Origin: a virus
IMG/VR virus record: IMGVR_UViG_3300022074_000148
Coordinates: 1-36,755 of that record
DNA: 36,755 nucleotides
Strand: one strand, 5' to 3'
This document shows positions 733-17,781 of this stretch, in pieces (position 1 is the first letter of the stretch; the number at the start of each line of letters is the position of its first letter). The position numbers were made by a program, and so were the translations under genes. Below the pieces are notes generated by a model that searched no databases, had not been told where the DNA came from, and worked only from the letters and a program-made list of their open reading frames with translations.

Positions 733-767
733 GAATTAGCCACAGGCTAAATTGCCTTTAAAGGTTA

Positions 768-3126: not shown

Positions 3127-4546
3127 TGCCTGCCTCCGGTTCTCCTTCAGGCATTGTGACTTCCTGCTCCGGGACTGGCTGCGGTGTTTCCATCAATCCA
3201 CCAGCCTGAGTCGCTTCAAGTTCGGCTTCTACATCAAAGTCGTCACCAAGCACTTCGCCCGCTTCAAGCTGCAGCAACAACGTTTCCTGTGTCACCGTGC
3301 CAGCGGTGTAAAGCTGCAACAACGCTTGGATCTCTTGTGGCTCAAGTCTTGTACCCATGAAGTCACGATTCACCAGGCTGCTGCCAGCTTGTGACTCCTG
3401 CAAGTAATCAGCATGGAACCGCAGGCAGTTATCGATCATGTCCTGCATCTGCTGTGCCACCACCATCATGGTGCTGTCGCCTTGGCTGCGATCAATCCGT
3501 TTTGACTCGGCAGTTTCTGCGCTGAGCTTTGCACCCATCACAGCAGCAAGGCCAAGCTCATTTATCTGTGATGCAATCTGATCCAGCCTGCGGAACTGTG
3601 CGTCATAGCTGTTGCCACCGGGTTCGATATAGCTTGCCGATGCACCTTCAGGGAGACTTAGTGCTTCGCCTGGGCCTGCGCTGATTTCTTCTGCTGCTGC
3701 AGGGAAACCAAATAATGCAAGCATCGGTACTGCACTGATGTGCAGTTGATTTCCAAGATCTGATTGCACCTGATAGTGCTGCAGGTTTAGTTCAGCAATG
3801 TCAGCCAGCGGTGGGAATGACTCCAAAACGCCAACCCTGTTGGAGTAAGCAACGCTGAACGGAATTTGGCTCAAGCTTGTTGTGCCTTCATCAACAACAC
3901 GGAAGTCACCTTTCTGATCTTTCTGGAAGATCTCAAATGCGCCAGGGGTTAGTACGCGCACCTGTTCAACTTGCTTTTCTCCGTACAAGCCATCGGGCAC
4001 GACGATCTTTTCAGAAAGACGAAGTTGCGTCAGTTTCTGTTGCCCATCAGCCAATTCAACCCTCCAGCCGAGCACGTCCCTTGGCGAGTATGAAATCCAG
4101 TAAGGACGGCCATTGTCGCCAGACTTTGGCGCATCAACAAGAACACCGACGTGCCCGTAGCGGATGCAAAGGCGCGACGTGTTGTAAAGCCACGTCTGCA
4201 GATCATTGCCCTGCAGGTCTACGTCAAATAATTGTTCGCGGATTTGATCAGACACATCGTCAAGCCTGACCGGCTTGCGGGTCAACATGCCAGCCAACAT
4301 GCGTTCGAGCCTGACGTAATAAGGCGCTAAAACAGAACGCTGCAGCCTGTTGTCATAAGACTCGTCTAATTCTCTAGGCTCCTGCGGTAAAAATTTACGG
4401 TGACCTTTTCTGATCTTGTATGTGCCACCAAGCAAATGTTCGATCAATCCCCAATGCGGTTCTTGATTAACCCAAGCCGTACTGGGGTCGTTCACCTGAG
4501 TGACGTTGCCAACGCGCTGGCGACCACCAGAAAAGCCTGAATACAC
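3110..4546 (-). CDS. Portal protein (DUF4055-like)
   Basis: The product (478 aa) lies directly after TerL. It has hallmarks of DUF4055 portals: an N-terminal WGLIEHLLGGTYKIR segment, KFLPQEPRE with YDNRLQRSVLAPYYV, and the wing element PYWISYSPRDVLGWRVEL. These are followed by a long helical clip/stem region and an acidic, Pro/Glu-rich C-terminus. It forms the dodecameric DNA channel at the capsid vertex and docks the terminase. The start is a GTG at 4546 with GGTGGG about 9 bases upstream. The C-terminus overlaps the next gene. Confidence 0.92.
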   Translation of the reverse strand: MYSGFSGGRQRVGNVTQVNDPSTAWVNQEPHWGLIEHLLGGTYKIRKGHRKFLPQEPRELDESYDNRLQRSVLAPYYVRLERMLAGMLTRKPVRLDDVSDQIREQLFDVDLQGNDLQTWLYNTSRLCIRYGHVGVLVDAPKSGDNGRPYWISYSPRDVLGWRVELADGQQKLTQLRLSEKIVVPDGLYGEKQVEQVRVLTPGAFEIFQKDQKGDFRVVDEGTTSLSQIPFSVAYSNRVGVLESFPPLADIAELNLQHYQVQSDLGNQLHISAVPMLALFGFPAAAEEISAGPGEALSLPEGASASYIEPGGNSYDAQFRRLDQIASQINELGLAAVMGAKLSAETAESKRIDRSQGDSTMMVVAQQMQDMIDNCLRFHADYLQESQAGSSLVNRDFMGTRLEPQEIQALLQLYTAGTVTQETLLLQLEAGEVLGDDFDVEAELEATQAGGLMETPQPVPEQEVTMPEGEPEAGNGLAE

Positions 4547-4573
4547 AGTTAAATCCCACCCGATGCAGTCAGT

Positions 4574-5923
4574 TTAGTAGAGCCTAATGCCAGTGCCCCG
4601 TCCAGCACGCGCATGAATCATGCTGAAGTCTCTGTAGATCAAGTAGCCCAAAGCATCATTCATATGGTCATAACCCGCATCTTTATCGGGATCACCGGCC
4701 TCGGTGTAACTCTGCAGCTCTAAACATTCAATGGTTCGTTTGCAATTTGCGGCGACCTGCAATCTGACTTCGCCCTTCCCGTTTTCCAGCAAAGCTTGAA
4801 CAGAAGCCACCCGATCGCGGACGGGAGGGTTGGCCTTTGGTGATTGATTGCTGAACTGGTATGACTCGAGAATCTGTATATCGGTTCGCGAGGCATTAGT
4901 AGAACGCGCTGAGCCTGATGCGTCAGGGTAGACGTAAACCTGGCGTCCTTCTGCGCGGCGTTGTATTTCTTGGGCCATGGCGTCGGTGTCATGTGCGCCA
5001 GTCACCTCGTCAATCAGGAGAAGGTTGTTCCCAAGACGAACACCGATGACTGCGGACATGTTTCCGATATTGAAGTCAACGCCGACGCGAAGGGGCTCGT
5101 TGCTGACATCAGGAATATCGGTGATTACATGTTTGGCGCGATCAAAACGGTCATAAACCTGACCTGTTGTCAGATTCGTAAATTCTCCAAGCAAATACGC
5201 CTTTAACAGGCTGGGATCGTAGTTGGCTTCGAGACGTTCAATGAAATCTTTTGGGAGGTGGGGATTATCCACCGATCGCATTTTAATCAGCTTTCGATCA
5301 GGGCGCTGTTGTGCCTCTTCTGTTCCAAACGTGTTCCACATCCAACGGAAGCCTTCAGGCGTTGATGCAGCCGCAAACTGTCGAACGTTGCCAGCACGTA
5401 AGCGGCCAAGGATTTTCGGGAATGCTTTCTGTGCGATTGATGGCGTGACTGTATCGATTTCATCGGCAAGCACCCAGGCAAGGTTCAAGCCAATGATGCG
5501 TGACCAATTCTCGAAACTGCGGCACAAGATTTTTGTGTCACCGCCGGGTAAATGCAAAACATATTCTGGGAGTGGACTTGCTCTAAACGTGTAGGGGATT
5601 TCGTAAGCCTCAAGAAATTCCTCGAAATCATTCATCCATATATCGCGGATCAAAGGCCCAGTAGGCTCCATCACGCAACCCATGAAGCCTTGATTTAACA
5701 CCGCAAGGACGACAGCCTTTGCAGCCAAGCTACGGGTCTTGCCCGCCCCATACCCAGCAGACAAGCCGATGATTTCTGTCGTTTGATCTTCTACAAATGC
5801 AAGCTGGCCTGGGTGCAAGTCGGCCTTGATCTGTGTGACTAAGGCTTGAACGTCTAGCTCTGAATTACTTTCGCCAATTCGGTTCAGGATTGATCCGCTT
5901 TCGATGTGGCTAAGGAACGTCAC
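4574..5923 (-). CDS. terL: Terminase large subunit (ATPase-nuclease)
   Basis: The 449-aa product contains a Walker A AGYGAGKT at residues 56-63, Walker B WVLADE ending at Asp154-Glu155, and a C-terminal RNase H-like nuclease with GVDFNIG, YPDASGSAR and DHMNDALGYLIY as the acidic catalytic positions. It drives DNA into the prohead and cuts the concatemer. I chose the GTG at 5923 because it overlaps the TerS stop as GTGA; a TTG at 5962 would add 13 unconvincing residues and a 43-base overlap. Both domains look intact. Confidence 0.95.
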   Translation of the reverse strand: MTFLSHIESGSILNRIGESNSELDVQALVTQIKADLHPGQLAFVEDQTTEIIGLSAGYGAGKTRSLAAKAVVLAVLNQGFMGCVMEPTGPLIRDIWMNDFEEFLEAYEIPYTFRASPLPEYVLHLPGGDTKILCRSFENWSRIIGLNLAWVLADEIDTVTPSIAQKAFPKILGRLRAGNVRQFAAASTPEGFRWMWNTFGTEEAQQRPDRKLIKMRSVDNPHLPKDFIERLEANYDPSLLKAYLLGEFTNLTTGQVYDRFDRAKHVITDIPDVSNEPLRVGVDFNIGNMSAVIGVRLGNNLLLIDEVTGAHDTDAMAQEIQRRAEGRQVYVYPDASGSARSTNASRTDIQILESYQFSNQSPKANPPVRDRVASVQALLENGKGEVRLQVAANCKRTIECLELQSYTEAGDPDKDAGYDHMNDALGYLIYRDFSMIHARAGRGTGIRLY

Positions 5924-6240
5924 TGAAGCACTTGAGCGATCTGCGCTGCGGTCTTGATGCAACCCAAGGCAGCGTTGAGATTATTGGTCTTGCGGGCCTC
6001 TTTTTGCAGCGTGGCGAGCTGAGCAAGGATTTCTGCAGTAAAAGTCAGCCGATCTGTTTCCCAATCAGCCCGGATAAGATCCCGCGCCTTGGCGATGTAG
6101 GTGTCTGTTTGCCGTTCAGCGATTTCCCATTCTTTCGCGCAATACTGCACGATCTCAGAGCGGACAGCACCGTTCGCCAAAAGGCGAGCGATGCGGTTGA
6201 CGCGCATGTCTACTTCAATCTTTGTGGACTTGTTTGCCAT
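5920..6240 (-). CDS. Terminase small subunit-like protein
   Basis: A helical protein of 106 aa lies immediately upstream of TerL. The N-terminal part (residues about 10-60) reads like a helix-turn-helix (VNRIARLLANGAVRSEIVQY, then AERQTDTYIAKARDLI), followed by a longer helical oligomerisation segment. The arrangement fits a TerS that recognises pac/cos DNA and presents it to TerL. Its ATG overlaps the methyltransferase stop (ATGA), and its stop is coupled to the TerL GTG. It lacks a strong family signature, so the call rests on fold pattern and position. Confidence 0.8.
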   Translation of the reverse strand: MANKSTKIEVDMRVNRIARLLANGAVRSEIVQYCAKEWEIAERQTDTYIAKARDLIRADWETDRLTFTAEILAQLATLQKEARKTNNLNAALGCIKTAAQIAQVLQ

Positions 6241-7427
6241 CAGCCTTTTGACTCCTCCTGTTCAAAGTGTGCCGCAGATGGTTCGCAGATGGCGGTGTTA
6301 CCGGTGAAGTCTTCCCAGCGTTTGACGATGACGTCGCAGTAAACGGGGTCGAGTTCCATAAGGCAAGCGTGTCGGTGCTGACGCTCGCAGGCGATGAGGG
6401 TGGAGCCTGAACCACCGAAAGAATCAAATACGGTTTTGTGCGCTGGATTGTCTTCTAAAGCCATTTCAATCAGCTCTACGGGTTTCATCGTTGGGTGAAG
6501 GGTGTTGCGTTGACGCTTGAGCTGCCAGACGTCTCCTCGAACAGTTTTCTGCCCTCCGAAGGGGCCAAAGTAAAAGATGATTTCGTGCTGCTTGTAATAG
6601 CGGTCAAGATTTTGGGCTGGATTGACTTTGTCCCAGACGATCATTGACTTAGGCGCAACACCTAGCTCAGTCATCGCCTGTTTAAAGAGATGCGCATACT
6701 GCCAAGAACAGCAGACATACATGACCTCTGCGGGCTGAATTGTGTCTTTGAGGAACTGGAGAAACTCCGAGTCACTCATTTTGTCATTCGCGATTTTCTC
6801 AAATTTGGCTTTTATGTCCTGGTAGCCGATGTTGTAAGGCGGGTCAGTAAAGACCATGTCTGCCTTCTTCCCATCCATTAGGCGTTCGACGTGCTGCGGG
6901 TTGGTGCTGTCACCGCAAAGCAAACGATGGTTGCCGAGGATCCACAGGTCGCCTGGTTTGGTAGTGGGTTCTTCTGGTGCTTCTGGTACGTCGTCAGGAT
7001 CTGTGTTGCCCTCTTCAGGATCAAGCTCCGTGACGTTGAGAATTTCGTTTAGGTCGTCCTGATCAAACCAAGGGCTGATGTCATGTTCTTCTGAGAGCTG
7101 ATGCAGCATCTCCTGATCCCATTCGCTGAGATCAGCCGTGCGGTTGTCAGCAAGAGCAAGGCCGACCTTTTGCTCCTCTGATAGGCCGGTGCGTTTAACG
7201 GCGATGATCTCATCACCGTCGGTTTCAATGATGCGTACGTTTTTGATGCCTGCGGCTTTTGCCCCATCGATGGTGCCATTGCCCGCAAGGATGCGGTTGT
7301 CTTCATCGATAACAATGCTTCGAGCAGCGCCATAACGTTGCAGCGATTCTTTGATCAGATCAGAAGATCGATCTGTTCTACGTCGTGCATTTTTATGGTC
7401 TGACTTTAAAGATGTTATTGATGTCAA
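6240..7427 (-). CDS. ParB-like domain fused to DNA methyltransferase (beta class)
   Basis: The fusion protein has 395 aa. Residues 1-100 resemble a ParB/Srx-type domain (RILAGNGTIDGAKAAG, QKVGLALADNRT). After an acidic linker (about 130-158), residues 160-380 form an amino-methyltransferase with motif IV TDPPYN (DPPY 195-198) preceding the SAM motif FDSFGGSGST (about 335-344), the beta-class order for N6-A/N4-C enzymes. It probably methylates phage DNA for protection or timing. It sits just before TerS with ATGA coupling. The start is a TTG at 7427; no ATG or clear SD is nearby. No cognate restriction gene is visible. Confidence 0.92.
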   Translation of the reverse strand: MTSITSLKSDHKNARRRTDRSSDLIKESLQRYGAARSIVIDEDNRILAGNGTIDGAKAAGIKNVRIIETDGDEIIAVKRTGLSEEQKVGLALADNRTADLSEWDQEMLHQLSEEHDISPWFDQDDLNEILNVTELDPEEGNTDPDDVPEAPEEPTTKPGDLWILGNHRLLCGDSTNPQHVERLMDGKKADMVFTDPPYNIGYQDIKAKFEKIANDKMSDSEFLQFLKDTIQPAEVMYVCCSWQYAHLFKQAMTELGVAPKSMIVWDKVNPAQNLDRYYKQHEIIFYFGPFGGQKTVRGDVWQLKRQRNTLHPTMKPVELIEMALEDNPAHKTVFDSFGGSGSTLIACERQHRHACLMELDPVYCDVIVKRWEDFTGNTAICEPSAAHFEQEESKG

Positions 7428-7458
7428 GCTAAAAAGACCGCTTGATGTATAGCGTAGC

Positions 7459-7671
7459 TCAGAGATGTTGGTTTTGATTGGCTTTTAGCCAGTAGCTCTG
7501 AAGGCGGATGATCTTTTCCTCGACGAGGTGATGGCTACTCACGATCGACCTGAATTGGATTGGCTCCTCGCCCACCGTGATCATGATCCGGCCGTCTGGC
7601 TCGAGCGTACGCAGTTTGGCGATAGGCAAGGCTGAGTCTGGCTTCATAGCGAAGAAAGGCGCGGAGTTCAT
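7459..7671 (-). CDS. Small unknown protein (70 aa), overlapping frame
   Basis: From the ATG at 7671 the frame encodes MNSAPFFAMKPDSALPIAKL, then DGRIMITVGEEPIQF and a helical amphipathic tail ending NQNQHL. It looks like coding sequence, but 137 bases lie inside the 88-aa ORF in the next frame (7535-7801). No SD is seen. It may be a separate gene, or the true C-terminal half of the upstream frame after a +1 shift. Function unknown. Confidence 0.5.
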   Translation of the reverse strand: MNSAPFFAMKPDSALPIAKLRTLEPDGRIMITVGEEPIQFRSIVSSHHLVEEKIIRLQSYWLKANQNQHL

Positions 7672-7801
7672 TTTGATGTTGCTGTGCTTTGAAGTGTTCG
7701 TCCATGTTTGAGATCGGGGTATTGATCGGGACACCAAGCCCGCCCTGCTTTTCCCACGGGGGTGGGTGTTGTATGGCTTTCAGCCGGACTCGAAACGGCA
7801 T
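7535..7801 (-). CDS. Small unknown protein (88 aa)
   Basis: The product is not recognised. It has a basic, Pro-rich N-terminus (IQHPPPWEKQGGLGVPINTP), a helical middle (MDEHFKAQQHQNELRAFLRY) and an Arg/His/Gly-rich C-terminal end that overlaps the 70-aa frame and looks less protein-like. It lies between the 96-aa gene and the 70-aa frame in the leftward operon. Only the first ~60 residues look convincingly selected. Confidence 0.5.
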   Translation of the reverse strand: MPFRVRLKAIQHPPPWEKQGGLGVPINTPISNMDEHFKAQQHQNELRAFLRYEARLSLAYRQTAYARARRPDHDHGGRGANPIQVDRE

Positions 7802-7819
7802 CAGGCGCCCCGACGGTGA

Positions 7820-8110
7820 TCAGTCTTCGTCGTCTTCTAAGCGAACAGTGACTGTGTAACCGCTCTCGGCAGCAATTTGCTTGAGGCTGGCGAGTTCGTC
7901 GTTGTCGTAGGCCCAGTCCTCCCAAATGTGCTCAGAGCCTTTGTAGGCGTTGACGGTGTAACGAGGCTCGACACGCGCAAACTTGAGGAGGTTTGACGAA
8001 TCAAGCCTGTCTTGAGTGGCCTGAAATTCATCAAATAAGTTGAGCCAGGTGTGGTGATAATCGAGCATGGTGTTGAAGCGAAAGTGTCGAGCGATCTCCG
8101 CCCGATACAC
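7820..8110 (-). CDS. Small acidic unknown protein (up to 96 aa)
   Basis: The protein has aromatic-rich helices (MLDYHHTWLNLFDEFQATQD), then NAYKGSEHIWEDWAYDNDEL and a strongly acidic C-terminus (RLEDDED). I do not recognise a family. The longest start is GTG at 8110, but a consensus-like promoter at 8141-8113 would initiate near 8106. From that transcript the first usable start is the ATG at 8068 (82 aa). The GTG remains possible on read-through RNA from upstream. Confidence 0.7.
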   Translation of the reverse strand: MYRAEIARHFRFNTMLDYHHTWLNLFDEFQATQDRLDSSNLLKFARVEPRYTVNAYKGSEHIWEDWAYDNDELASLKQIAAESGYTVTVRLEDDED

Positions 8111-8112
8111 AC

Positions 8113-8141
8113 AACATACATCCAGGCATACCCGCTGTCAA
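8113..8141 (-). promoter_or_regulatory. Sigma70-like promoter with GCGGGTATGCC in the spacer
   Basis: On the - strand a perfect -35 TTGACA (8141-8136) is followed by 17 bases and a -10 TATGTT (8118-8113). The spacer begins GCGGGTATGCC, the same 11 bases that lie in the spacer of the + strand promoter at 13205-13233. The -35 overlaps the stop of the RHH gene 8138-8443. It would drive the genes leftward toward the methyltransferase and terminase. Confidence 0.65.
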
Positions 8142-8443
8142 CGTTTTGCGTTCAGGGCGCAAATCACCGTGCAGATCAACGGCTCCAATTGCGCGTGGGG
8201 AATGTCATAACGGCGATTGACAGCATCCATAGCCCTGTCGATTACGTCGCGGCCTTTGGAGTAATGCACAGGCTTGATCTCAGGGACAGGGGCAGGCTGG
8301 TTGGCTTCGCTCAATACGCGAGCCCTCAGCAGCTCTTGGCGCGAGATTCCTCGCTTTAGGGCCTGTTCGTTCAAAGCTTCTCTTTCGGCCTCAGTAAGAC
8401 GGACATCGATTCGGCAGGGATAGGTGCGGTTGCAGTCAGGCAT
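8138..8443 (-). CDS. Ribbon-helix-helix-like protein (101 aa)
   Basis: The N-terminal half reads CRIDVRLTEAEREALNEQAL followed by GISRQELLRARVL, matching the beta-strand plus two-helix layout of RHH/MobC-like DNA-binding proteins. The C-terminal half is helical with no known motif. Its ATG overlaps the RepA-like gene stop (ATGA at 8443), so the two are translated together. It could be a regulator of the motif found at nearby promoters or an accessory replication factor; this is inference. Confidence 0.75.
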   Translation of the reverse strand: MPDCNRTYPCRIDVRLTEAEREALNEQALKRGISRQELLRARVLSEANQPAPVPEIKPVHYSKGRDVIDRAMDAVNRRYDIPHAQLEPLICTVICALNAKR

Positions 8444-10089
8444 CAGAAATCAAATAAATCAGTTGGTTCAGGCTCTTGCGAGCCAGATTGACAAAGGCGT
8501 ACGTCTAGACCCCAGCGCAGATTGCTGATCAAGACGTTTGGGCTTCCGAGCTTTGCAGCGCGGATGCTGCCCATATTGCTCGCATTGGCAACGACCCACC
8601 CGTTGCACCACTCATTGTTGCGAAACAGCTCAACAGGAGCACCGACAGCAGGTGTGTCAAACCCCGATCCTCCGTCACTACGTGTCAAAGGTGTCAAAGG
8701 TGGCAAACCCCTTTCTATCGTGATAGAGGGTGAGGTTTGGGACGTTTGGGACGTTTGCCACCCCTCCAGGGAGGATCCTCCTGCTGGTCGATACAACGGC
8801 GATGGGCGACCACCAAGCACGCCAGGATCGGCAAGCCCTGCTTCTTCAATCAAGCCCTTGCGAACCAAGCCGCGCAAGCATCGGCTCGTCTTGTTGCGCT
8901 CAAGATTGAAGTGCGTTGCAAGCTCTGTCCCCGCCACAGTGAACTCACCCAAGAGCCAACGCTCTTTGATGTAGTCGAACACGTCAGCCTGACGGCCCTG
9001 AAGATCGTCAGCGGCTTCCTGCATGGCCTCAGCAGCCAAGACATTCTCACCGTCGCCGTGATGCACCCATCCGTCGTCTTCAAGCTCAATCAACAGGGTC
9101 GTGCCTTTTGCCCTCCCCTGCGTCTTGAGCACAACGCGATGATCTGATTGTGTCTGGCCTTCGGCAGGCTGCTTAAACCAGTTCATCAGGATCGTGAGGC
9201 TGGCCGCCGCAGGCAGGGCATTGCTGCCCCGGCTCGCATTGGTTGCATTGCCACCGCTGACGCTTTTGTTGGTGTGATGGATCATCGCCAACGTGGCCTT
9301 GTGTGGGGCAAGGGCCTCGGAAAGCTGACGGGCTGGACCATCAAAACTTGAAGCGGCTTCTTCAAGGCCAAGGGGCGCACAACAGGCGTGGTAACTGTCG
9401 AGCAAAAAGAATGAACCAGGGTTCTCTTCCGCGATCTCAGAAAGATGTTTGATCCCTTCAACTGTTAGGTGCAACGGTGCTCCCGTGTGCCACAACATTT
9501 CAACCGGGCCTGATAATTCGCCATCGCGATTTACCAAGCCTTCGCGTTCAAACAAGGTGTTCCAATCGCTTTCAGGTTGATCAGTCCCAATGATGTAAAC
9601 CTTGGGGCAAGCACCATGAAGTTTTTGGCCCAGATAAGATTCTTCGCCGTGAAACCATGCGCTGATCATTCCAACCATCAAGGCAGATTTGCCGACCTTG
9701 GGTGGCGCAACAAGCAAGTTGAAAGTGCCCGACATGATGACACCTTCCCACGACCATGGTGTAGGGGTTGTGTTTAACTTTTCACCGCGTTTTCGTGGGA
9801 CGGATACGCCAGCAATTTGACCTTGGGCCTTGCTTAAAACAATGCCCGCAGTTTTTTCGTTAATCGGACAACCAACCTCATCGGCGTAAAGACGAAGCAG
9901 TTGCGATCGGCGCAGCTCGTCTGTCTCATTACAAAGGACGGTGTTTGCGTATTGGTCGAGCCGGTCCAGAAGGTCTTGGTGGTCCTTCAGGCTTTCGGGC
10001 AGTATCTCGGAGGGCTTTGATTCGCCCGGTGTAGTGTCCATCTTTGGCTTTGCTTGGGGAGTAAAAGTCAGCCTGTGCGTAGACACCAA
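8443..10089 (-). CDS. RepA-like AAA/RecA-fold ATPase (replicative helicase or initiator)
   Basis: The product has up to 548 aa. A RecA-fold core carries Walker A APPKVGKS (128-135), Walker B SFFLLD (ending Asp231) and IHHTNKS (270-276), as in RepA/AAA_25 hexameric helicases. Residues about 360-420 form a winged-helix-like domain (GTELATHFNLERNKTSRCLR). A low-complexity Ser/Thr/Gln/Pro linker (about 440-485) precedes a small beta-rich C-terminal domain. It is the only replication ATPase visible and probably loads the host replisome. Starts are ambiguous: TTG 10089, GTG 10086 (behind GGAAAGG) or ATG 10041. All overlap the upstream gene by more than 100 bases. Confidence 0.88.
   Translation of the reverse strand: MVSTHRLTFTPQAKPKMDTTPGESKPSEILPESLKDHQDLLDRLDQYANTVLCNETDELRRSQLLRLYADEVGCPINEKTAGIVLSKAQGQIAGVSVPRKRGEKLNTTPTPWSWEGVIMSGTFNLLVAPPKVGKSALMVGMISAWFHGEESYLGQKLHGACPKVYIIGTDQPESDWNTLFEREGLVNRDGELSGPVEMLWHTGAPLHLTVEGIKHLSEIAEENPGSFFLLDSYHACCAPLGLEEAASSFDGPARQLSEALAPHKATLAMIHHTNKSVSGGNATNASRGSNALPAAASLTILMNWFKQPAEGQTQSDHRVVLKTQGRAKGTTLLIELEDDGWVHHGDGENVLAAEAMQEAADDLQGRQADVFDYIKERWLLGEFTVAGTELATHFNLERNKTSRCLRGLVRKGLIEEAGLADPGVLGGRPSPLYRPAGGSSLEGWQTSQTSQTSPSITIERGLPPLTPLTRSDGGSGFDTPAVGAPVELFRNNEWCNGWVVANASNMGSIRAAKLGSPNVLISNLRWGLDVRLCQSGSQEPEPTDLFDF
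8654..8762. repeat. Iteron-like 9-bp repeats inside the RepA-like gene (candidate origin)
   Basis: Three 9-bp units in phase (GTGTCAAAG at 8682, GTGTCAAAG at 8691, GTGGCAAAC at 8700) face three units (GTTTGGGAC at 8735 and 8744, GTTTGCCAC at 8753). The outermost, GTTTGCCAC, is the exact reverse complement of GTGGCAAAC. A further GTGTCAAA lies at 8654, and a CTATC-GT-GATAG palindrome (8715-8726) lies between. They encode Pro-Leu-Thr and Thr-Ser-Gln tripeptide repeats in the protein linker, so coding repetition alone could explain them. Confidence 0.55.
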
Positions 10090-10300
10090 GCCTTTCCAGT
10101 TCCTTAAACGCTTCTAGTTCGTCGCTGGATTTGTACGGATGATCAGCGTCCCATGCGTCGAGAGCATGATCGGAGCGATCCTTCTGCGTCTTGCTGTAAT
10201 AGCCGAGCATCGCTTGCTCTTCGTCATATTGAGACGGAAGGCAATACGGCACCCACTGCAACAGATCAAAGGCGCGTTCTTCTGCTTTGAGATCAGTCAC
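9929..10300 (-). CDS. Unknown protein upstream of RepA-like gene (123 aa)
   Basis: The product is acidic and aromatic in the first 90 residues (AFDLLQWVPYCLPSQYDEEQ, DELEAFKELERLGVYAQADF) and ends in a Pro/Arg-rich tail. I do not recognise a family. The GTG at 10300 was chosen because it overlaps the preceding stop in GTGACTGA and has CGGAG upstream; a TTG at 10327 would extend it. The tail overlaps the RepA-like start by 113-161 bases, so tail and RepA N-terminus are encoded in different frames of the same DNA. Confidence 0.7.
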   Translation of the reverse strand: MTDLKAEERAFDLLQWVPYCLPSQYDEEQAMLGYYSKTQKDRSDHALDAWDADHPYKSSDELEAFKELERLGVYAQADFYSPSKAKDGHYTGRIKALRDTARKPEGPPRPSGPARPIRKHRPL

Positions 10301-10457
10301 GGGCAAGGGGCTCCGGCTCTGACGCAATTGCCTTTTGCAGCAGCAGGTTGACCCAGCCGGTGCGGGTGACGCCGATGGGTTTCTTGCGGTCCACTTCTGC
10401 GATCACTCTGGGATCGACGCGGACGTGGCTGCTAGCAGTTGATTCCAGTTCTGCCAT
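10293..10457 (-). CDS. Small ribbon-helix-helix DNA-binding protein (54 aa)
   Basis: The protein reads MAELESTASSHVRVDPRVIA followed by RTGWVNLLLQKAIASE, a classic CopG/Arc-like strand-helix-helix. It is the first gene of the leftward transcript. The frame is open to 10592, but that would cross the divergent promoter and the nuclease gene on the opposite strand, so the ATG at 10457 is chosen. It lies about 18 bases from the predicted start site, without an SD. Adjacency to the dyad at 10461-10516 makes it the best candidate for an autoregulator of that operator. Confidence 0.75.
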   Translation of the reverse strand: MAELESTASSHVRVDPRVIAEVDRKKPIGVTRTGWVNLLLQKAIASEPEPLARD

Positions 10458-10466
10458 TGATTGGGG

Positions 10467-10495
10467 TTGCTTTGCTGCCAAAGTATGCCCATACT
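10467..10495 (+). promoter_or_regulatory. Rightward promoter of the early block
   Basis: TTGCTT (10467-10472), 17 bases, then CATACT (10490-10495). Exactly the same hexamer pair and spacing occurs at 13205-13233. Transcription would start near 10502, about 15 bases before the nuclease ATG at 10517, leaving a very short leader without SD. Confidence 0.65.
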
Positions 10496-10510
10496 GGACC
10501 CAAAGCGCAA
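10482..10510 (-). promoter_or_regulatory. Leftward promoter, mirror image of the early promoter
   Basis: On the - strand TTGCGC (10510-10505), 17 bases, then CATACT (10487-10482). It overlaps the rightward promoter so that both -10 boxes form one palindrome; the two promoters should compete or be co-repressed. It would start RNA near 10475 for the RHH and RepA-like genes. Confidence 0.55.
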
Positions 10511-10516
10511 CCCCCA

Positions 10517-11164
10517 ATGCTTGATCCGGTTCCAGAGCTTGAGTTCTACGAAAAAATCCATCGTTATCGATTTCGAAACGAGTGGCTGGCATACAACGTT
10601 GGAAATGTGCTCGACGTTGATATGACGCCGTTCAAGCGAGCAATGATCGACAAATACAAAGACGGCCCCGACGGATGGGCCGCCCGAGGAACGGCCATCC
10701 ATTCCGCGCTGGAGCTGCACCTTCTTGACGAGCCGCAGATTGTTGACGACAAATGGTCGCCGTGGCTTGATCCACTGCTTGACGATCCATTCTTTAGAGG
10801 CGTTGAAACCTTGGCCACGGAATACAGGGTGATGGACAGACACAAAAGCCTTGGCGGCAGCTTTGACTTTTTAATTCGCCTGAAAGAAGAAGGACTGGAA
10901 CCCAGCAAGCAACTGGTCATCCTGGGAGATCTGAAAACGGTGGCATCAAAAAAGGCCATTGGCTCGCGTGCTCCAGCAACAGCACAGCTCGGTGCGTACA
11001 TGTCTTGTTTGGCCCTTGTGCAACCAAGTATCACGGTTGGCATGTGCGTGACTGTTGTGAGCGGCCCCGAAAAATGTAAGGTGATCAAACAAGATCCAGA
11101 AGAATGCCTTGAAGCCTGGGAAGAGGCGTGGGGCAAATTCCAAGCAACACAACCAAACTTTTGA
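10517..11164 (+). CDS. PD-(D/E)XK exonuclease, RecB/Cas4-like
   Basis: The 215-aa protein shows the full nuclease motif set: GTAIHSALE with His62, Glu102, GGSFD with Asp117, ILGDLKT with Asp138-x-Lys140, and QLGAY (157-161). This order is that of lambda-exo/RecB/Cas4-type nucleases. Together with the ERF annealase at 14.6 kb it would make a two-part recombination system: the nuclease resects ends and the annealase pairs strands. The ATG at 10517 is the first after the predicted promoter; an in-frame upstream extension would run through the promoter. No SD is evident. Confidence 0.9.
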   Translation: MLDPVPELEFYEKIHRYRFRNEWLAYNVGNVLDVDMTPFKRAMIDKYKDGPDGWAARGTAIHSALELHLLDEPQIVDDKWSPWLDPLLDDPFFRGVETLATEYRVMDRHKSLGGSFDFLIRLKEEGLEPSKQLVILGDLKTVASKKAIGSRAPATAQLGAYMSCLALVQPSITVGMCVTVVSGPEKCKVIKQDPEECLEAWEEAWGKFQATQPNF

Positions 11165-11178
11165 GCCGTCAAATCAAG

Positions 11179-11373
11179 ATGAAGTGTCCCAAGTGCGGAT
11201 CATTCCGCGTCCATGTTGTGACGACCAAGAAAACTGTTGATGGCCCCTACGAAACAGTGCGCCGCCGCCATTGCAATAGCTGTGACTACAGGTGGTACAC
11301 AGCGCAAGAGCCCGAGGTAAACATCGGCCCATATCTGAACTGGGTTGGCGATCAGGTCAGAGTGCCGACCTAG
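11179..11373 (+). CDS. Small zinc-ribbon protein, NrdR-N-terminus-like
   Basis: The 64-aa product begins MKCPKCGS and contains two Cys pairs, Cys3/Cys6 and Cys32/Cys35 (RRRHCNSCDYRW), spaced as in the zinc ribbon of NrdR. The ATP-cone domain of NrdR is absent, so it is a stand-alone ribbon. It may bind DNA or a host transcription protein. It begins 14 bases after the nuclease stop in the same transcript. The alternative start at 11128 would overlap the nuclease gene and adds nothing family-like. Confidence 0.8.
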   Translation: MKCPKCGSFRVHVVTTKKTVDGPYETVRRRHCNSCDYRWYTAQEPEVNIGPYLNWVGDQVRVPT

Positions 11374-11550
11374 CAAACCCCCGGCTCCGGAAACTAAGCA
11401 CCATAAGTCCAGTTACATTTCTGGCACACCTGCGCTTTTCTATGGGACGCCTCACTCTTTCAATACAGGGAAGCGGTGCTCTAACACCGCCGCCCCTGGC
11501 TTAGCCAGGACATCTCACGCCCCAGGCTTTGCCTGGACTCATTAAAGACC
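11374..11550 (+). other. 177-base intergenic leader before the HTH gene
   Basis: No convincing gene is seen here; the frames open through it are short and of low quality. The notable content is two hairpins near the 3' end (11495-11536). No clear promoter match was found, although TTTCAATACAGG near 11457-11468 could be inspected. It is long for this compact genome and probably serves as a regulatory leader. Confidence 0.5.
11495..11536 (+). promoter_or_regulatory. Tandem hairpins in the leader of the HTH gene
   Basis: CCTGGC-TTA-GCCAGG (11495-11509) and CCAGGC-TTT-GCCTGG (11522-11536) are two perfect 6-bp stems with 3-base loops, 12 bases apart. The ATG of the HTH gene follows 14 bases later. 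The sister stems are similar in composition, suggesting a duplicated RNA element, a protein-binding site, or paired processing signals. No T-tract follows, so a simple terminator is unlikely. Confidence 0.55.
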
Positions 11551-12096
11551 ATGTTTGATTTTTCTGAATTTTGCGGCGGCTCTGCCGCAAGACCTGTCGA
11601 GTTTTTAGGGCTCACAGAAGAGGCAACAAGCCAACTGCTGAATCAAGAATTTGGGTTATCCAAATTGTTGCTTGAAAAATACCCCGATGTTTTCAAGCGC
11701 GGCGGCAGCCCTAACTCATTAGGTAAGTGCCTAATTCTTTTTGAAAGCCTTGGTCGTCGTTGCAACTATGACACCATCGCAGACATGTTGGAAGTCAGCC
11801 GCGACACGGTGTATGAAAACATGCGCCTTGTTCGCAATCACGTTAATGATGCTTTCGGCTTGAAAATTGAGCACAGCGGTTCACAGGTTTACCTTGTCAA
11901 CAATCAAACGCTGGCGCAAAAAGCAGAACGCCTGCAAGGTCATCTGAGCAAAGTTGACAATGCAATGCGCAACCTCAAAGCAGACGTAGACAGCATTCGT
12001 CGATCGGGACAAACCCCTGTCTTGCCTGGGACTGCTGGGGCGTTGCTTGCTGGTTATGAACAAGCAAAGCAGCTTGAAGCCTCACAGAATCTTTGA
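11551..12096 (+). CDS. Helix-turn-helix protein with C-terminal coiled coil
   Basis: The protein of 181 aa has a probable HTH at about residues 65-95 (CNYDTIADMLEVSRDTVYEN). A C-terminal helical/coiled-coil segment follows (ERLQGHLSKVDNAMRNLKAD). The pattern suggests a DNA-binding regulator in the early block, possibly the activator of late genes, though nothing in sequence shows this. A terminator follows its stop by 19 bases. Upstream it has a structured leader with two hairpins, so its own expression may be controlled at RNA level. Confidence 0.7.
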   Translation: MFDFSEFCGGSAARPVEFLGLTEEATSQLLNQEFGLSKLLLEKYPDVFKRGGSPNSLGKCLILFESLGRRCNYDTIADMLEVSRDTVYENMRLVRNHVNDAFGLKIEHSGSQVYLVNNQTLAQKAERLQGHLSKVDNAMRNLKADVDSIRRSGQTPVLPGTAGALLAGYEQAKQLEASQNL

Positions 12097-12115
12097 TCAA
12101 ATTTTGACGTTTATG

Positions 12116-12140
12116 CCCTTGCAAATCGCAAGGGTTTTTT
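12116..12140 (+). terminator. Rho-independent terminator or attenuator
   Basis: CCCTTGC-AAATC-GCAAGGG (12116-12134) is a perfect 7-bp stem with a 5-base loop, followed by TTTTTT (12135-12140). It is the clearest intrinsic terminator in the window. The next ATG is only 6 bases downstream, so besides ending the early transcript it may act as an attenuator for the gene at 12147. Confidence 0.9.
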
Positions 12141-12146
12141 ATCGCA

Positions 12147-13193
12147 ATGACATTAACTAACGAAACTTCAATTGCCCAAGCTTTCCCGCCTGCAGTGTTA
12201 GGGCGCGGTTACAGCAATACTGAGCTGAAGTTAATCAAGAGCATTTGGACCGACACCAAACAGGTCGCCCAGCAAAAGATGCAGCTCTGCCTTCACTTGT
12301 ACGAACTGAAGCAGGAGATGGACGCCAATGATCCGCACGCTGGCAACGATCCGCAAAAGTCACGTTTCTGGGGGGCTTTTGAAAACGGCGACTTGCCTGA
12401 ATACGTGGTCAACGATCCACGAAGAGCCCGCGACTGGATTGCGGCTGCAGAGTTTGCAACCTCTGGAAGCTTGGGCGGGGCCTCGCCGGAGTCGCTTTTG
12501 GCTCTGACGCCGTCCACCGTTTGCAATCTGGCGCGGATCTCCAACCCCGACGCTTTGAAGATTGCAGAGCAGCATCTCAAAACTCACGAGTTCATCGGTC
12601 ACGATGCGGCGTCGTACCTCGCCAAAAACGACTTGGACGATGAGGTGCTTGCCGAATTAAGAATGTGGATTATTGAGAACGAAAGCAAGGCATTAGTCCC
12701 CAGCGTGATTCGCAAGGTTGAGTCAGCCGTTCGAGAAAGTCAACAGCCAGCCAGCACTCGGACTATTGATGCCGAGCAAATCCGTGAGCAAGAAGCTGAG
12801 TTCAAACGAATCTCAGACGACCTGACTGCCAGGGCTCCCGAGATCGCTGCCCGCAATACAGCGACGGCTGTAAAAGAAGAGCTAAATCGTCCAGCTAAAG
12901 AGCACCAAGAAAAGCTTGAGGGTGAAGTCCGCAAGTACAACAGCAAACTCAACGCAGCCGCTGAGGCTGTACAAGATCTACTTACGTGCCTGATTGCCAT
13001 TGATCGAGTGCATGGCACTCAATATTTGGACGAAATGCGGGGCGCTGATTTGATGGGGCTTGTCAGTGTTCAAGACGATTTACAGCGTCTATTGGCTATG
13101 GGGCAAGAGTTGATGAAAGTTGTTGAACTGGCAAAAAGCAACAACCCGCCGAGCGGGATTGACATGACGACGCTTGAAGTCGAACAGCTCTAA
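12147..13193 (+). CDS. Unknown coiled-coil protein (348 aa)
   Basis: I do not recognise this protein. An N-terminal helical domain (residues about 1-190: ELKLIKSIWTDTKQVAQQKM, then PRRARDWIAAAEFA) is followed by a long charged coiled coil (about 200-285, REQEAEFKRISDDLTARAPE) and a shorter helical end. A role as a DNA-binding or recombination-mediating factor is possible from its place among nuclease, RusA and ERF genes, but unproven. The gene starts 6 bases after a terminator hairpin and has no SD, so expression must depend on read-through or an unseen promoter. Confidence 0.75.
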   Translation: MTLTNETSIAQAFPPAVLGRGYSNTELKLIKSIWTDTKQVAQQKMQLCLHLYELKQEMDANDPHAGNDPQKSRFWGAFENGDLPEYVVNDPRRARDWIAAAEFATSGSLGGASPESLLALTPSTVCNLARISNPDALKIAEQHLKTHEFIGHDAASYLAKNDLDDEVLAELRMWIIENESKALVPSVIRKVESAVRESQQPASTRTIDAEQIREQEAEFKRISDDLTARAPEIAARNTATAVKEELNRPAKEHQEKLEGEVRKYNSKLNAAAEAVQDLLTCLIAIDRVHGTQYLDEMRGADLMGLVSVQDDLQRLLAMGQELMKVVELAKSNNPPSGIDMTTLEVEQL

Positions 13194-13204
13194 AGGCTGA
13201 TCTG

Positions 13205-13233
13205 TTGCTTTCTCCCTGCGGGTATGCCATACT
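13205..13233 (+). promoter_or_regulatory. Promoter sharing the early-promoter core motif
   Basis: TTGCTT (13205-13210), 17 bases, then CATACT (13228-13233), identical in hexamers and spacing to the promoter at 10467-10495. The spacer ends GCGGGTATGC, so GTATG-C-CATAC forms a small palindrome over the -10. Start of RNA would be near 13240. An AAGGG-GAGAT-CCCTT hairpin (13240-13254) then forms at the 5' end of the RNA. Confidence 0.65.
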
Positions 13234-13274
13234 GGCTCCAAGGGGAGATCCCTTTTCACCTCCAAATTAATTCC

Positions 13275-13451
13275 GTGAAATCACGTTCCCGCTACTACAA
13301 GCCTGAAAAAACAAACTTTCTAGTTTGTGCCGCATTTGCCCTTCTTTTTTCCGGTGCAACTTGGCTCACCTTGACCAGCGTTCACAACCAACAACAAGTC
13401 ACGCACTGCAAGCAAGGTTGGCAACGCGCCTGCGCGAATTTGCCCCAATGA
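13275..13451 (+). CDS. Small single-span membrane protein (58 aa)
   Basis: From the GTG at 13275 the product has a basic N-terminus (KSRSRYYKPEK), one hydrophobic helix (NFLVCAAFALLFSGATWLTL) and a polar tail with two Cys (HCKQGWQRACANLPQ). Positive-inside topology puts the tail in the periplasm. An upstream in-frame ATG at 13224 lies inside the promoter and is excluded. Its stop overlaps the next ATG (ATGA). It is expressed from its own promoter in the early block, so a role in host takeover or superinfection exclusion can be imagined, without direct evidence. Confidence 0.6.
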   Translation: MKSRSRYYKPEKTNFLVCAAFALLFSGATWLTLTSVHNQQQVTHCKQGWQRACANLPQ

Positions 13452-13750
13452 CACAGAAACTCTACCTGCAGTGGCAACAATGCAAAGCCAGGAATCCTGG
13501 CCTTTTATTGCAGCTCGCAGGGCTAGCCAGAGAGCTAAAGCTGTCAGGTCATAGCCGCTATTCAATGGACGGTTTGTTTCACATTCTCCGATGGGAGACA
13601 CGGGCAACAACCGGCGACCTTGGCCTCAAGATCAACAACAATCACACAGCTTTTGCGGCCCGTGATTTGATGGATCAGTTTCCTGATCTTGAAGGTTTCT
13701 TCAAAACACGCGAGCAAAAAGCACGCGGTAATCACGGCCAGTTTCATTAA
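13448..13750 (+). CDS. Conserved phage protein of unknown function (100 aa)
   Basis: The protein contains HSRYSMDGLFHILRWETR, then LKINNNHTAFAARDLMDQFP and GFFKTREQ. I recognise this pattern (YS-D-LFHxIRW followed by LNNNxTAxYAR and GFFxxR) as a small family widespread in phage early regions, with unknown function. The ATG at 13448 overlaps the membrane-protein stop (ATGA), and the longer frame from 13325 would be an out-of-frame shadow. Confidence 0.8.
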   Translation: MTQKLYLQWQQCKARNPGLLLQLAGLARELKLSGHSRYSMDGLFHILRWETRATTGDLGLKINNNHTAFAARDLMDQFPDLEGFFKTREQKARGNHGQFH

Positions 13751-13795
13751 CTTTGGGCGGCTATTGCGTAAGTCCCGTTCTCTTTTTCTAATTAC

Positions 13796-14242
13796 ATGGA
13801 ATCACCTTCTATCTCTACATTCGTCGAAGCACAGCCTGCTGTCATAGCGGCTTTAAAAAAGCATCGTGAACGCTGGAATGCAGTCAACGCAGCCGATCGC
13901 ATGGTTATTTTTGAAGCTCAAAAAGTAAAGGCTTTGATTTATGCTTTTGAGCTTTGCATTGATAAGATGAGTTGCAGCGAATCAGACGATGAACTCAGCG
14001 AAGCCAACGAGTCACTGCTGCAAAAATATACTACTGGGGATTCAGAGTCGTGGTTTTTTGAATATCACCGAGCGCAAGAAGTCGTTCAGTTAGCAATTGT
14101 TGAGCAATGCCAAAAAGTTGTAGTAGCGCAACTTGAGCACGAAAGGATCAAAAAAGAAAATCAATCTTGTAAGGAACTTGCAAAAGCTCGATCCGATGCG
14201 CGAGACTTGTTCAATCAACAGCAGAAAAAAGAGGCCAAGTGA
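13796..14242 (+). CDS. Unknown helical protein before RusA (148 aa)
   Basis: The product is not recognised. It is highly helical, acidic in the middle (CSESDDELSEANESLLQKYT) and basic and coiled-coil-like at the end (QLEHERIKKENQSCKELAKA). The 45-base gap before it contains a T-rich CTTTTT tract but no stable hairpin. Its stop overlaps the GTG of the RusA-like gene (GTGA), implying coupled translation and perhaps a shared task in junction processing. Confidence 0.7.
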   Translation: MESPSISTFVEAQPAVIAALKKHRERWNAVNAADRMVIFEAQKVKALIYAFELCIDKMSCSESDDELSEANESLLQKYTTGDSESWFFEYHRAQEVVQLAIVEQCQKVVVAQLEHERIKKENQSCKELAKARSDARDLFNQQQKKEAK

Positions 14243-14676
14243 GCGAAAGCTTTACGTTCACTGTTTTTGGTAAACCTGCCCCGCAAGGCAGCAAGCGTCA
14301 TGTTGGCAAAGGCATTTTGCTTGAGTCAAGTAAACGCTGTAAGCCTTGGCGTCAAGATGTCAAGTATTCAGCTCTTGATGCTCTACCTGACGGCTGGTAT
14401 GCCATAATGGATAGGCCCATTTTGGTCTCGGTCACTTTCATATTTGCCAGACCGAAAGGCCATTTTCGCAATAACGGAGAACTTAAACCTAAAGCCCCTT
14501 CTCATTGCACCGCACGCATCGGTGACGTGGACAAATTAAGCCGCGCTGTCTTAGATGGTCTGGCTGAAATTTGTTTCAACGACGATGCCCAAGTAATCGC
14601 TCTAAATGCACAAAAACGTTATGCAACCAGAAACGAACAACCCTCCGCAATCATTACCATTGCAGCCATTAGTTGA
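14239..14676 (+). CDS. RusA-like Holliday-junction resolvase
   Basis: The 145-aa protein matches RusA in length and motifs. It opens FTFTVFGKPAPQGSKR, has a central strand VSVTFIFARPK, and carries the catalytic block IGDVDKLSRAVLDGL with Asp96, Asp98, Lys99 and Asp106, followed by NDDAQV (Asp115-116). RusA dimers cut four-way junctions made during recombination-dependent replication or before packaging. The GTG start at 14239 overlaps the upstream TGA. The gene overlaps the ERF annealase start by up to 71 bases, as expected of a compact recombination operon. Confidence 0.93.
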   Translation: MSESFTFTVFGKPAPQGSKRHVGKGILLESSKRCKPWRQDVKYSALDALPDGWYAIMDRPILVSVTFIFARPKGHFRNNGELKPKAPSHCTARIGDVDKLSRAVLDGLAEICFNDDAQVIALNAQKRYATRNEQPSAIITIAAIS

Positions 14677-15295
14677 AGCTTTGGTCAACTTTCACAAAAA
14701 CGTCCCAGCAATCAACAAAACAGCAAAAGCCCAATATGGAAACTTTGCTGATCTTGAGACTGTCCTTTCAACTGTCACCCCGCATTTGATTAAAAACAGC
14801 CTTGTGATCACACAGTTGTTTGAGCCCAGCGAAGGCATTGACCCAATCCTTGTCACAAAGTTGCTGCACGTCAGCGGCGCTGAGCTCGTCAGCCGCTTGC
14901 CAATGGTTGTCGGCAAAGGTCGCAACCCTCTGCATGACTTTGGTGGATCTTGCACTTATCTCAAAAGATATGCCTTGCTGGCCTTGCTTGGTCTCACAGC
15001 CGACATGGATGTTGACGGTGACTTTGCCGATTCTGCAGAAGCCAAACCAGCAAAAGCAGCGCCTAAGCCTGCAGCAAAGATTGAAGGCATTGCCGACAAA
15101 GATCAACCTCTGTCAAAAGAAGATCGCGATCAATGCCTTGGTCTTATCAAAGAGCTGACTCCTGACAACCTTGCTCGATTTTGTACGGATTTTCGACGGG
15201 ACTTTAATCTCGGGCCTAACGACAAGGTTGCCCCAGCATTGACGGCCAAGCGCCATCAAGACTGGATGAACACCCATTTGAAAAATTATGTCTGA
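14606..15295 (+). CDS. ERF-family single-strand annealing protein
   Basis: The product (229 aa) carries the ERF core: FADLETVLSTVTPHLIKNSL in the N-terminal half and GGSCTYLKRYALLALLGLTA followed by an Asp-rich end (DMDVDGDF). An Ala/Pro/Lys linker (about 150-170) and a small helical C-terminal domain follow. ERF proteins anneal complementary strands and can circularise or recombine phage DNA. With the exonuclease at 10.5 kb this forms a Red-like pair. ATG 14606 and ATG 14621 are both possible; neither has an SD. Confidence 0.92.
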   Translation: MHKNVMQPETNNPPQSLPLQPLVEALVNFHKNVPAINKTAKAQYGNFADLETVLSTVTPHLIKNSLVITQLFEPSEGIDPILVTKLLHVSGAELVSRLPMVVGKGRNPLHDFGGSCTYLKRYALLALLGLTADMDVDGDFADSAEAKPAKAAPKPAAKIEGIADKDQPLSKEDRDQCLGLIKELTPDNLARFCTDFRRDFNLGPNDKVAPALTAKRHQDWMNTHLKNYV

Positions 15296-15482
15296 CGATG
15301 AAAAGACAGCACAAGCCAAGCGTGATGACGAACGGCGTCATCTGCATTTCCAAGTTCGGCTGGATCCTGTCCTAGCCAAAAATGTTCAGCACTACGCTGA
15401 TCAAAATCACGGCGGCGTGCGCAACGCTGCGGTCAAAACCATTCTTTCCCAATTCTTCAAAGGCATTAATCCTGATGGCTGA
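15288..15482 (+). CDS. Small ribbon-helix-helix-like protein (64 aa)
   Basis: A charged N-terminus (MSDDEKTAQAKRDDERR) precedes a strand-helix-helix (LHFQVRLDPVLAKNVQHYAD, then GVRNAAVKTILSQFF) of the RHH type, without the usual sharp Gly-Ser turn, so confidence in the DNA-binding call is moderate. It overlaps the ERF 3' end by 8 bases and the next gene by 8 bases. It is the third RHH-like protein in the genome. Confidence 0.7.
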   Translation: MSDDEKTAQAKRDDERRHLHFQVRLDPVLAKNVQHYADQNHGGVRNAAVKTILSQFFKGINPDG

Positions 15483-15753
15483 TTTCGCTCCCGACGCATT
15501 CACACTTTGGTTCAACTGCAACCAAGACAAAAAAACTGCTGGTGCTTATTGGGCTTCATCTGAAGTGCCTGTGGCTGAACTTCGCAAGTTAGTTGAATGG
15601 GCCAAGACTGCAGAACGCACCGAAAACCAAAAAGGGGACGAGTGCGTAAAACTTCGCGCCAACCTTCGCCCTCGCGTCAGCAAGGCCGGTAACGACTTCT
15701 TGCTGATGGCAATCTCTGATCAAAAGCCACCACAAGCAGAAGCTGATTTCTGA
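15475..15753 (+). CDS. Unknown small protein (92 aa)
   Basis: The ATG at 15475 overlaps the RHH stop in ATGGCTGA. The product (MADFAPDAFTLWFNCNQDKK, YWASSEVPVAELRKLVEWAK, RPRVSKAGNDFLLMAISDQK) looks like a compact alpha/beta domain with a single-strand-binding-like feel at the end, but I do not recognise a family. The longer frame from 15382 is a shadow of the RHH gene. It closes the recombination operon before the hairpin at 15765. Confidence 0.65.
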   Translation: MADFAPDAFTLWFNCNQDKKTAGAYWASSEVPVAELRKLVEWAKTAERTENQKGDECVKLRANLRPRVSKAGNDFLLMAISDQKPPQAEADF

Positions 15754-15764
15754 TTGATTCAATG

Positions 15765-15795
15765 GGCACGGCTAACCACCGTGCCTATTCTTTTG
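15765..15795 (+). terminator. Terminator-like hairpin in front of a small gene
   Basis: GGCACGG-CTAACCA-CCGTGCC (15765-15785) is a perfect 7-bp stem with a 7-base loop, followed by TATTCTTTTG. The T-tract is interrupted, so termination may be partial. The ATG of the next gene is at 15798, only 12 bases after the stem. This repeats the arrangement seen at 12116-12147. Confidence 0.7.
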
Positions 15796-15797
15796 AA

Positions 15798-15956
15798 ATG
15801 AAGCCAACAATCAAGCAAGTAGAAAAAGATGGAAAGCTTGTTTGGCGAATCGAGGCGGTTGGCCTCACAAAATTTCATGCTCAAAGGTGGCAGGCTGAGT
15901 GGCTTTACACCTACCTGACAAGTCTCTATAACTGCGACAAGACCAACTCTCAGTAA
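15798..15956 (+). CDS. Small unknown protein after the hairpin (52 aa)
   Basis: The product reads MKPTIKQVEKDGKLVWRIEA, then LTKFHAQRWQAEWLYTYLTS. It is basic and aromatic, and the WRIEAVG strand followed by a helix suggests a small DNA-interacting fold, but nothing is proven. An upstream in-frame ATG at 15762 lies inside the hairpin stem, so I use the ATG at 15798. Confidence 0.55.
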   Translation: MKPTIKQVEKDGKLVWRIEAVGLTKFHAQRWQAEWLYTYLTSLYNCDKTNSQ

Positions 15957-15963
15957 CTGAGCC

Positions 15964-16152
15964 ATGGCCCCAGTCAACATGAATTGGACGACTCGGCCTC
16001 AAGATCAAATCGACGCAGCCAAAGCAAGAGTTAGGGACACGCTGCACGAATCCAGCCCAAAACTGACCACTCTAGAAAAAGCTTTCAGGGCTTCTGCTCT
16101 CCGCCAGAAAGCACAGCATCCAGCAAGGCAATGTGACCAACGGCCTGCTTAA
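15964..16152 (+). CDS. Possible small protein (62 aa), end of rightward block
   Basis: The frame opens MAPVNMNWTTRPQDQIDAAK and continues helical and charged to about residue 45; the last part overlaps the oppositely oriented gene at 16085 and the hairpin and looks poor. It begins 7 bases after the previous stop without an SD. It may be a genuine gene whose tail has drifted. Confidence 0.4.
   Translation: MAPVNMNWTTRPQDQIDAAKARVRDTLHESSPKLTTLEKAFRASALRQKAQHPARQCDQRPA
16076..16112 (-). terminator. Terminator of the leftward lysis block
   Basis: GCTTTC (16081-16086) pairs with GAAAGC (16107-16112) across a 20-base loop. On the - strand the stem is followed by TTTTTC. It overlaps the stop of the 81-aa gene. 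It is weaker than the 12116 terminator because of the long loop, but it is well placed where two transcription units meet head-on. Confidence 0.5.
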
Positions 16153-16330
16153 GCAGTTTTCCTTGGTGCCATTGCTGACGGGCCATCGCGACACATAGCT
16201 GCGACAAAACATCAACGTTGTCACAGTCTTCGATGGATCTGATCGATCGCTCAAGCGTTAGTTCTTCTTCAAGGCTTGGTTTGACTACCATCCAATCGAA
16301 AGTGTTGGAGGCTGCGTTTTTCGGAGGCAT
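16085..16330 (-). CDS. Small acidic unknown protein (81 aa)
   Basis: The product begins MPPKNAASNTFDWMVVKPSL and includes LERSIRSIEDCDNVDVLSQL. It is helical and unrecognised. GAGGAG, 4 bases before the ATG at 16330, is one of the clearest SD sites in the window and fixes the start; the frame upstream to 16363 is excluded. It is the last gene of the leftward lysis block, ending in a terminator. Confidence 0.65.
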   Translation of the reverse strand: MPPKNAASNTFDWMVVKPSLEEELTLERSIRSIEDCDNVDVLSQLCVAMARQQWHQGKLLKQAVGHIALLDAVLSGGEQKP

Positions 16331-16475
16331 AAGGCTCCTCAGTCTTAAAACGTATGTAATCACCTATAGCGGGCAATAACCAGTCCTGCACTGGTAAACA
16401 TGCTTCCCAATTGACAGGTTGTAGGCAGTTCATAACGACTGTCGTCCAAAACGCTGTGATATAGCCCCAGTTCAT
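16269..16475 (-). CDS. Possible small protein coupled to the C39 gene (68 aa)
   Basis: The ATG at 16475 overlaps the stop of the C39-like gene (ATGA), which favours translation. The product is Trp/aromatic-rich (MNWGYITAFWTTVVMNCLQP, NWEACLPVQDWLLPAIGDY); its last third overlaps the 81-aa gene in another frame and looks non-coding. No homology is recognised. Confidence 0.4.
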   Translation of the reverse strand: MNWGYITAFWTTVVMNCLQPVNWEACLPVQDWLLPAIGDYIRFKTEEPYASEKRSLQHFRLDGSQTKP

Positions 16476-17301: not shown

Positions 17302-17305
17302 GAAA

Positions 17306-17479: not shown

Positions 17480-17503
17480 GGGATCACTGTGTGTGCAAAA
17501 AGT

Positions 17504-17767: not shown

Positions 17768-17781
17768 AGCTTGACTGCATC

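Follow-up and report, generated by a model that had tools for sequence, protein, structure and literature searches.

The question raised by this locus is what a pair of inverted repeats with a single common axis means in the short gap between two divergent phage genes. In the window, i.e., the whole stretch of 36,755 nucleotides analyzed (IMG/VR record IMGVR_UViG_3300022074_000148), an outer repeat of 8 bp and an inner repeat of 6 bp are centered alike on 10488.5, and the double dyad with a common axis described in an earlier note on this DNA was found with both repeats at the places it had given. The window contains a single exact co-centered double dyad of this size, compared with 0.03 per window after dinucleotide shuffling (one in 30 shuffles), and a mirror pair of TTG-N20-CAnnnT with −10 boxes 1–3 bp apart is likewise present once, vs. 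0.02 times per shuffle. The earlier note had also assigned the arms to two promoters in mirror image, as their −35 and −10 boxes, a reading borne out by the 20-nt distance kept among relatives, by the invariance of −10 positions 1, 2, and 6, and by the similar build of one-way promoters in these phages. In our assessment, the element very probably consists of two overlapping σ70-type promoters in mirror image. The spacer between −35 and −10 is 17 nt in both directions in the window, where the −10 boxes adjoin each other, 2 bp apart (Table 1). By the E. coli consensus each of these promoters is weak (7/12) and neither is in the list given by a standard promoter scan; position −12 is always C instead of T.

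Table 1. Positions of the divergent promoter element, its neighboring genes, and two one-way promoters in the window
Feature	Position	Strand	Remarks
RHH-like protein of 54 aa, first leftward gene, ATG at 10457	10293..10457	-	
Exonuclease of 215 aa (phrog_298), first rightward gene, ATG at 10517	10517..11164	+	
Intergenic gap of 59 bp holding the whole element	10458..10516	.	55-61 bp in most relatives
Left outer arm GGGGTTGC	10463..10470	.	includes TTG (10467-10469) of the rightward −35
Right outer arm GCAACCCC	10507..10514	.	arm best conserved among relatives
Rightward −35, TTGCTT	10467..10472	+	conserved geometry in relatives
Rightward −10, CATACT (right inner arm)	10490..10495	+	CAnnnT invariant in relatives
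Leftward −10, CATACT (left inner arm; AGTATG on plus strand)	10482..10487	-	CAnnnT invariant in relatives
Leftward −35, TTGCGC	10505..10510	-	conserved geometry in relatives
Predicted rightward transcription start	10502, ±1	+	inferred from −10
Predicted leftward transcription start	10475, ±1	-	inferred from −10
One-way promoter TTGCTT-17-CATACT, GGGTATGC upstream of −10	13205..13233	+	same phage family
One-way leftward promoter TTGACA-17-TATGTT, GGGTATGCC in spacer, hairpin after	8113..8141	-	

Relatives were sought with the exonuclease and with the RHH-like protein, which gave approximately 80 exonuclease loci and approximately 80 RHH loci, and the 81 usable gaps were grouped into 18 clusters at 75% identity. 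A small divergent RHH-like gene is found at nearly all of these loci, and the gap is mostly within the range given in Table 1. Common to the relatives on both strands, the cultured Synechococcus phage S-CBS3 included, are TTG, exactly 20 nt, and CAnnnT, although the bases around the element have mostly changed. Of 21 nonredundant gaps, 15 have CA exactly 20 nt after TTG in both directions, and no other offset tested was shared by the two strands of more than one gap. Within the −10 box, C1, A2, and T6 are invariant in both directions (15/15), which for positions 1 and 2 is partly the result of selection because the 15 mirror sites used for the base counts were chosen by CA on both strands, T6 and the 17-bp spacing being free of it. 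Positions 3–5 vary, giving hexamers of the form CA(T/C/G)nnT; A2 and T6 correspond to −11A and −7T in σ70 promoters, present on both strands at 15/15 sites. What has been conserved is a σ70-like −35/−10 pair with a 17-bp spacer on each strand. With 3, 2, or 1 bp separating the −10 boxes, the TTG..CAA distance is 37, 38, or 39, respectively, so between lineages the promoters shift against each other in steps of 1 bp and each spacer is left unchanged. Because the spacer is constant and the distance between half-sites is variable, a mirror promoter pair is favored over one rigid operator.

When spacers of 16–18 are allowed, the strict mirror pair is present in 70/81 loci and 12/18 clusters, vs. 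5.6e-5 per shuffled region; in L346 and in the cluster of L321, 11 of 12 positions agree, more than in any shuffle, and the strict pair is missing from four clusters that have the divergent RHH-like gene (L019, L310, L312, and L345). The axis of the outer TTG..CAA also predicts that of the inner repeat, with a combined p of 1e-10 (interior shuffled, all clusters except that of the window), a value that, as any p-value given here, overstates independence because the clusters are phylogenetically related. An axis scan lacking the TTG anchor was significant in some clusters only and, being weaker, was replaced by the TTG-anchored test. A scan of genome contigs yielded one relative, on a short MAG contig that is possibly phage DNA, and scans of viral contigs with 14-mers or with the outer dyad alone were dropped, since they returned mostly chance matches. 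The L321 cluster had been considered as a control devoid of a divergent RHH-like gene and was rejected as such, given that this gene lies approximately 250 bp away and the near-mirror promoter adjoins it. Other RHH-like types, with INVRIT.. or GEIRLRI.. N-termini, stand upstream of the exonuclease at L307, L309, L330, L346, and L332, where a mirror or near-mirror promoter persists despite the replacement.

The phages' own one-way promoters provide a standard with which the arms can be compared. Around TATGCCATA, 44 distinct one-way sites were collected, 32 of which have TTG at a spacer of 17 and at most two at any other spacer tested; TTGAC is present in 18. The phage-wide consensus for these promoters reads (GGG)TTGAC-17-CATACT, with GGTATGC ahead of the −10 box. 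Half of the 32 one-way promoters (16/32) have GGG ahead of TTG, which matches the flank of the outer arm in the mirror element, and 16/32 are followed by a short hairpin whose loop is GAGA. At the base that mirrors −7T, 43/44 one-way sites have G and 15/15 mirror sites have A, and the mirror CAA was found in 0/32 one-way promoters. Members of the one-way family include window positions 13205-13255 (+) and the minus strand of L331 near 219, 544, 761, and 1443, and S-CBS3 has two one-way sites in addition to one mirror pair. Since the mirror arms match the one-way consensus of these same phages, the assignment of the arms to promoters is supported. We regard the sequence of the element, its conservation, its geometry, and the one-way family as established.

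In the mechanism that we propose, each promoter has TTG as its −35 and CAnnnT as its −10 with 17 bp between them, the −10 boxes abut (1–3 bp apart in relatives), and the double dyad would result from the phage consensus GGG-TTG-N20-CATACT being written on both strands across approximately 50 bp. The rightward promoter would drive recombination genes, the exonuclease being the first, and the leftward one the RHH-like gene followed by a RepA-like replication gene. From these features we infer transcription itself as well as mutual exclusion: RNA polymerase bound in one orientation would cover the opposite promoter and, because a single orientation is possible at a time, use of one start should preclude use of the other, so that both operons would compete. 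The earlier note suggested that this switch could also control the entire late block on the left, which is unlikely given that another leftward promoter, TTGACA-17-TATGTT, lies at 8141-8113 (−), and relatives also carry a leftward promoter of this kind in a comparable place. That site is the sole canonical promoter-like match of at least 9/12 in window 1-18000, for which shuffles give 12.7, and σ70-like sites seem to be depleted in this part of the window.

The same note had proposed looking for co-variation of the two arms among relatives; it is seen in the variable inner bases, which change symmetrically between major lineages only, and is absent from the outer GGGG flanks. In close relatives, GGGA, GGCA, or GCTA has taken the place of the left GGGG, and the right CCCC is kept; the TTG of the left outer arm is also kept although its GGGG flank decays, and CATAGT replaces CATACT in many of these sequences. 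Within a spacing class, the left and right promoters at a given locus resemble each other no more closely than do promoters compared across loci, and as there is no excess of symmetry within classes, the promoter consensus explains most of it. Nevertheless, agreement at −10 positions 3–5 is 0.58 within a locus vs. 0.30 across spacing classes (p 0.005), and phages whose RHH-like protein is of a second type (group of L307, L329, and L330) keep GGTATGCCATACT at other promoters and have AACGTG-C-CACGTT at the gap. This symmetric change at the level of classes, which comprises few independent events, points tentatively to a symmetric reader, for which the RHH-like protein encoded next to the gap is a plausible candidate. 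The model of the 54-aa protein has an extended N-terminus followed by helices 16-25 and 32-46, the order of elements expected of an RHH protein. Sequence searches of Pfam, NCBIfam, and PDB with this protein gave no match, structure matches were weak (best Z 3.0), and comparing its profile with that of the 101-aa RHH-like protein gave nothing. The predicted fold is suggestive of membership in the RHH family, and RHH autoregulation is plausible. Repression of both promoters by the RHH-like protein, bound to the inner dyad, has, we believe, a little less than an even chance of being real. A code relating the beta strand to the operator was also considered and dropped, given that L294 and L295 have the same gap and different beta strands; it is contradicted as well by the sharing of TATGCCCATA between very different RHH-like proteins (L353).

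These observations also bear on how much of the dyad belongs to a regulator. At one extreme, it could be mainly an operator, with at least two RHH-like dimers on the inner and outer half-sites and the promoter boxes secondary or elsewhere. The nearly constant presence of an RHH-like gene as divergent neighbor, the paired changes of −10 positions 3–5 between classes, the separate gap sequence of the second RHH-like type, and the inner arms of L325, which are 11 bp long, would all be consistent with such an operator. However, a rigid protein array is difficult to reconcile with half-sites whose spacing varies from 1 to 3 bp while the −35/−10 distance does not, changes in a single arm are common, symmetry is not in excess within spacing classes, and L294 and L295 have one gap for two beta strands, all of which make a dyad that is primarily an operator improbable. 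At the other extreme, the symmetry could be that of the consensus written on both strands and nothing else, with competition between polymerases balancing the operons and no regulator of the dyad. This is a narrower form of the mirror-promoter explanation and a substantial possibility, albeit one to which we give less than even weight; it agrees with a within-class symmetry equal to that across loci and with arms that match the one-way consensus, but it accounts poorly for the symmetric class-level change at nonconsensus positions and for the conservation of the RHH-like neighbor. More tentatively, and with rather less confidence, we envisage a switch of approximately 55 bp in which the 54-aa RHH-like repressor reads the dyad and exchange of the repressor is accompanied by symmetric changes in the −10 boxes. 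It is most improbable that the element is a replication origin, a recombination site, or an RNA hairpin. RepA-like and exonuclease genes do flank it, but the window contains neither iterons nor second copies of the arms beyond expectation, and promoter geometry explains the conservation. A hairpin in the leader RNAs was rejected because the predicted leaders barely fold.

The virus of the window is related to the Synechococcus siphovirus S-CBS3, and the S-CBS3-like cyanosiphovirus module is complete in it, with the RepA-like helicase, the RHH-like gene, the divergent exonuclease, and RusA. Inside the RusA-like gene, GCTGGTATGCCATAAT is found at 14393-14408 (+) and also in relatives, where it encodes GWYAIMD, and it could reflect either a coding constraint or an internal promoter. 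At L023, a gap and RHH-like gene like those of the window are joined to an exonuclease of approximately 57% identity, an arrangement that likely arose by recombination at the gap. The annotated start of S-CBS3 gp43 (L262 3137-3197) overlies the promoter, with 60 nt between it and the following in-frame ATG downstream. Far from the element, at window 22820-23345, short stretches are 87–94% identical to genes of large Synechococcus phages, namely, a tail fiber protein (Sf-CH5 and Sf-CH8) and a hypothetical protein (S-CAM4), in surroundings that are otherwise unmatched, which suggests exchange.

On the strength of its sequence, we take the mirror-promoter element to be a real, conserved, and unusually compact divergent promoter. 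It provides the widespread, poorly studied cyanosiphoviruses with a deeply conserved and testable promoter pair, in addition to a phage-wide promoter consensus, and the literature searched yielded no description of the promoter from these viruses. Its abutting −10 boxes, with spacers held at 17 bp, represent an arrangement beyond the usual definition of a bidirectional promoter. Since the cultured phage S-CBS3 carries the element, the choice of direction, the exclusion between polymerases, and control by the RHH-like protein can be tested.

Overlapping divergent promoters accompanied by a regulator gene are known from tetR/tetA of Tn10. In the conjugation switch of pLS20, overlapping divergent promoters also adjoin a regulator gene, whereas in the phage the promoters are mirror images and the regulator is only putative (PMC4207663). 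According to reports on bacterial bidirectional promoters with symmetric −10 elements (Warman et al. 2021, via PMC10268837 and PMC12825309), the −10 element is shared or overlapping in these promoters, their starts are usually 18 bp apart, with a definition of 7–25 bp (PMC10268837), and polymerases compete when one side is strong (PMC12825309). The phage pair is like them in its pseudo-symmetric DNA, in having promoters of opposite strands on the same bases, in the key −11A and −7T, and presumably in that one polymerase would exclude the other. In contrast to the promoters so described, the phage pair has separate −10 boxes 1–3 bp apart, a −35 and a 17-bp spacer belong to each of them, and the predicted starts are approximately 27 bp apart, compared with the 7–25 bp of that definition (PMC10268837). 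In acrR/acrA, one regulator represses both RNAs, and the divergent gene of the autorepressor lies beside the operon, as would that of the putative autorepressor in the phage; acrR/acrA has a TetR-family repressor and a shared −10, whereas the phage has an RHH-like candidate and separate −10 boxes (PMC12825309). Finally, the gp44/gp43 gap of S-CBS3 (NC_015465) has the same gene pair and the mirror promoters, in a phage with the same one-way family, and differs from the window in that its −10 boxes are 1 instead of 2 bp apart, its spacers are 16 and 17 bp, and the remaining sequence has diverged.
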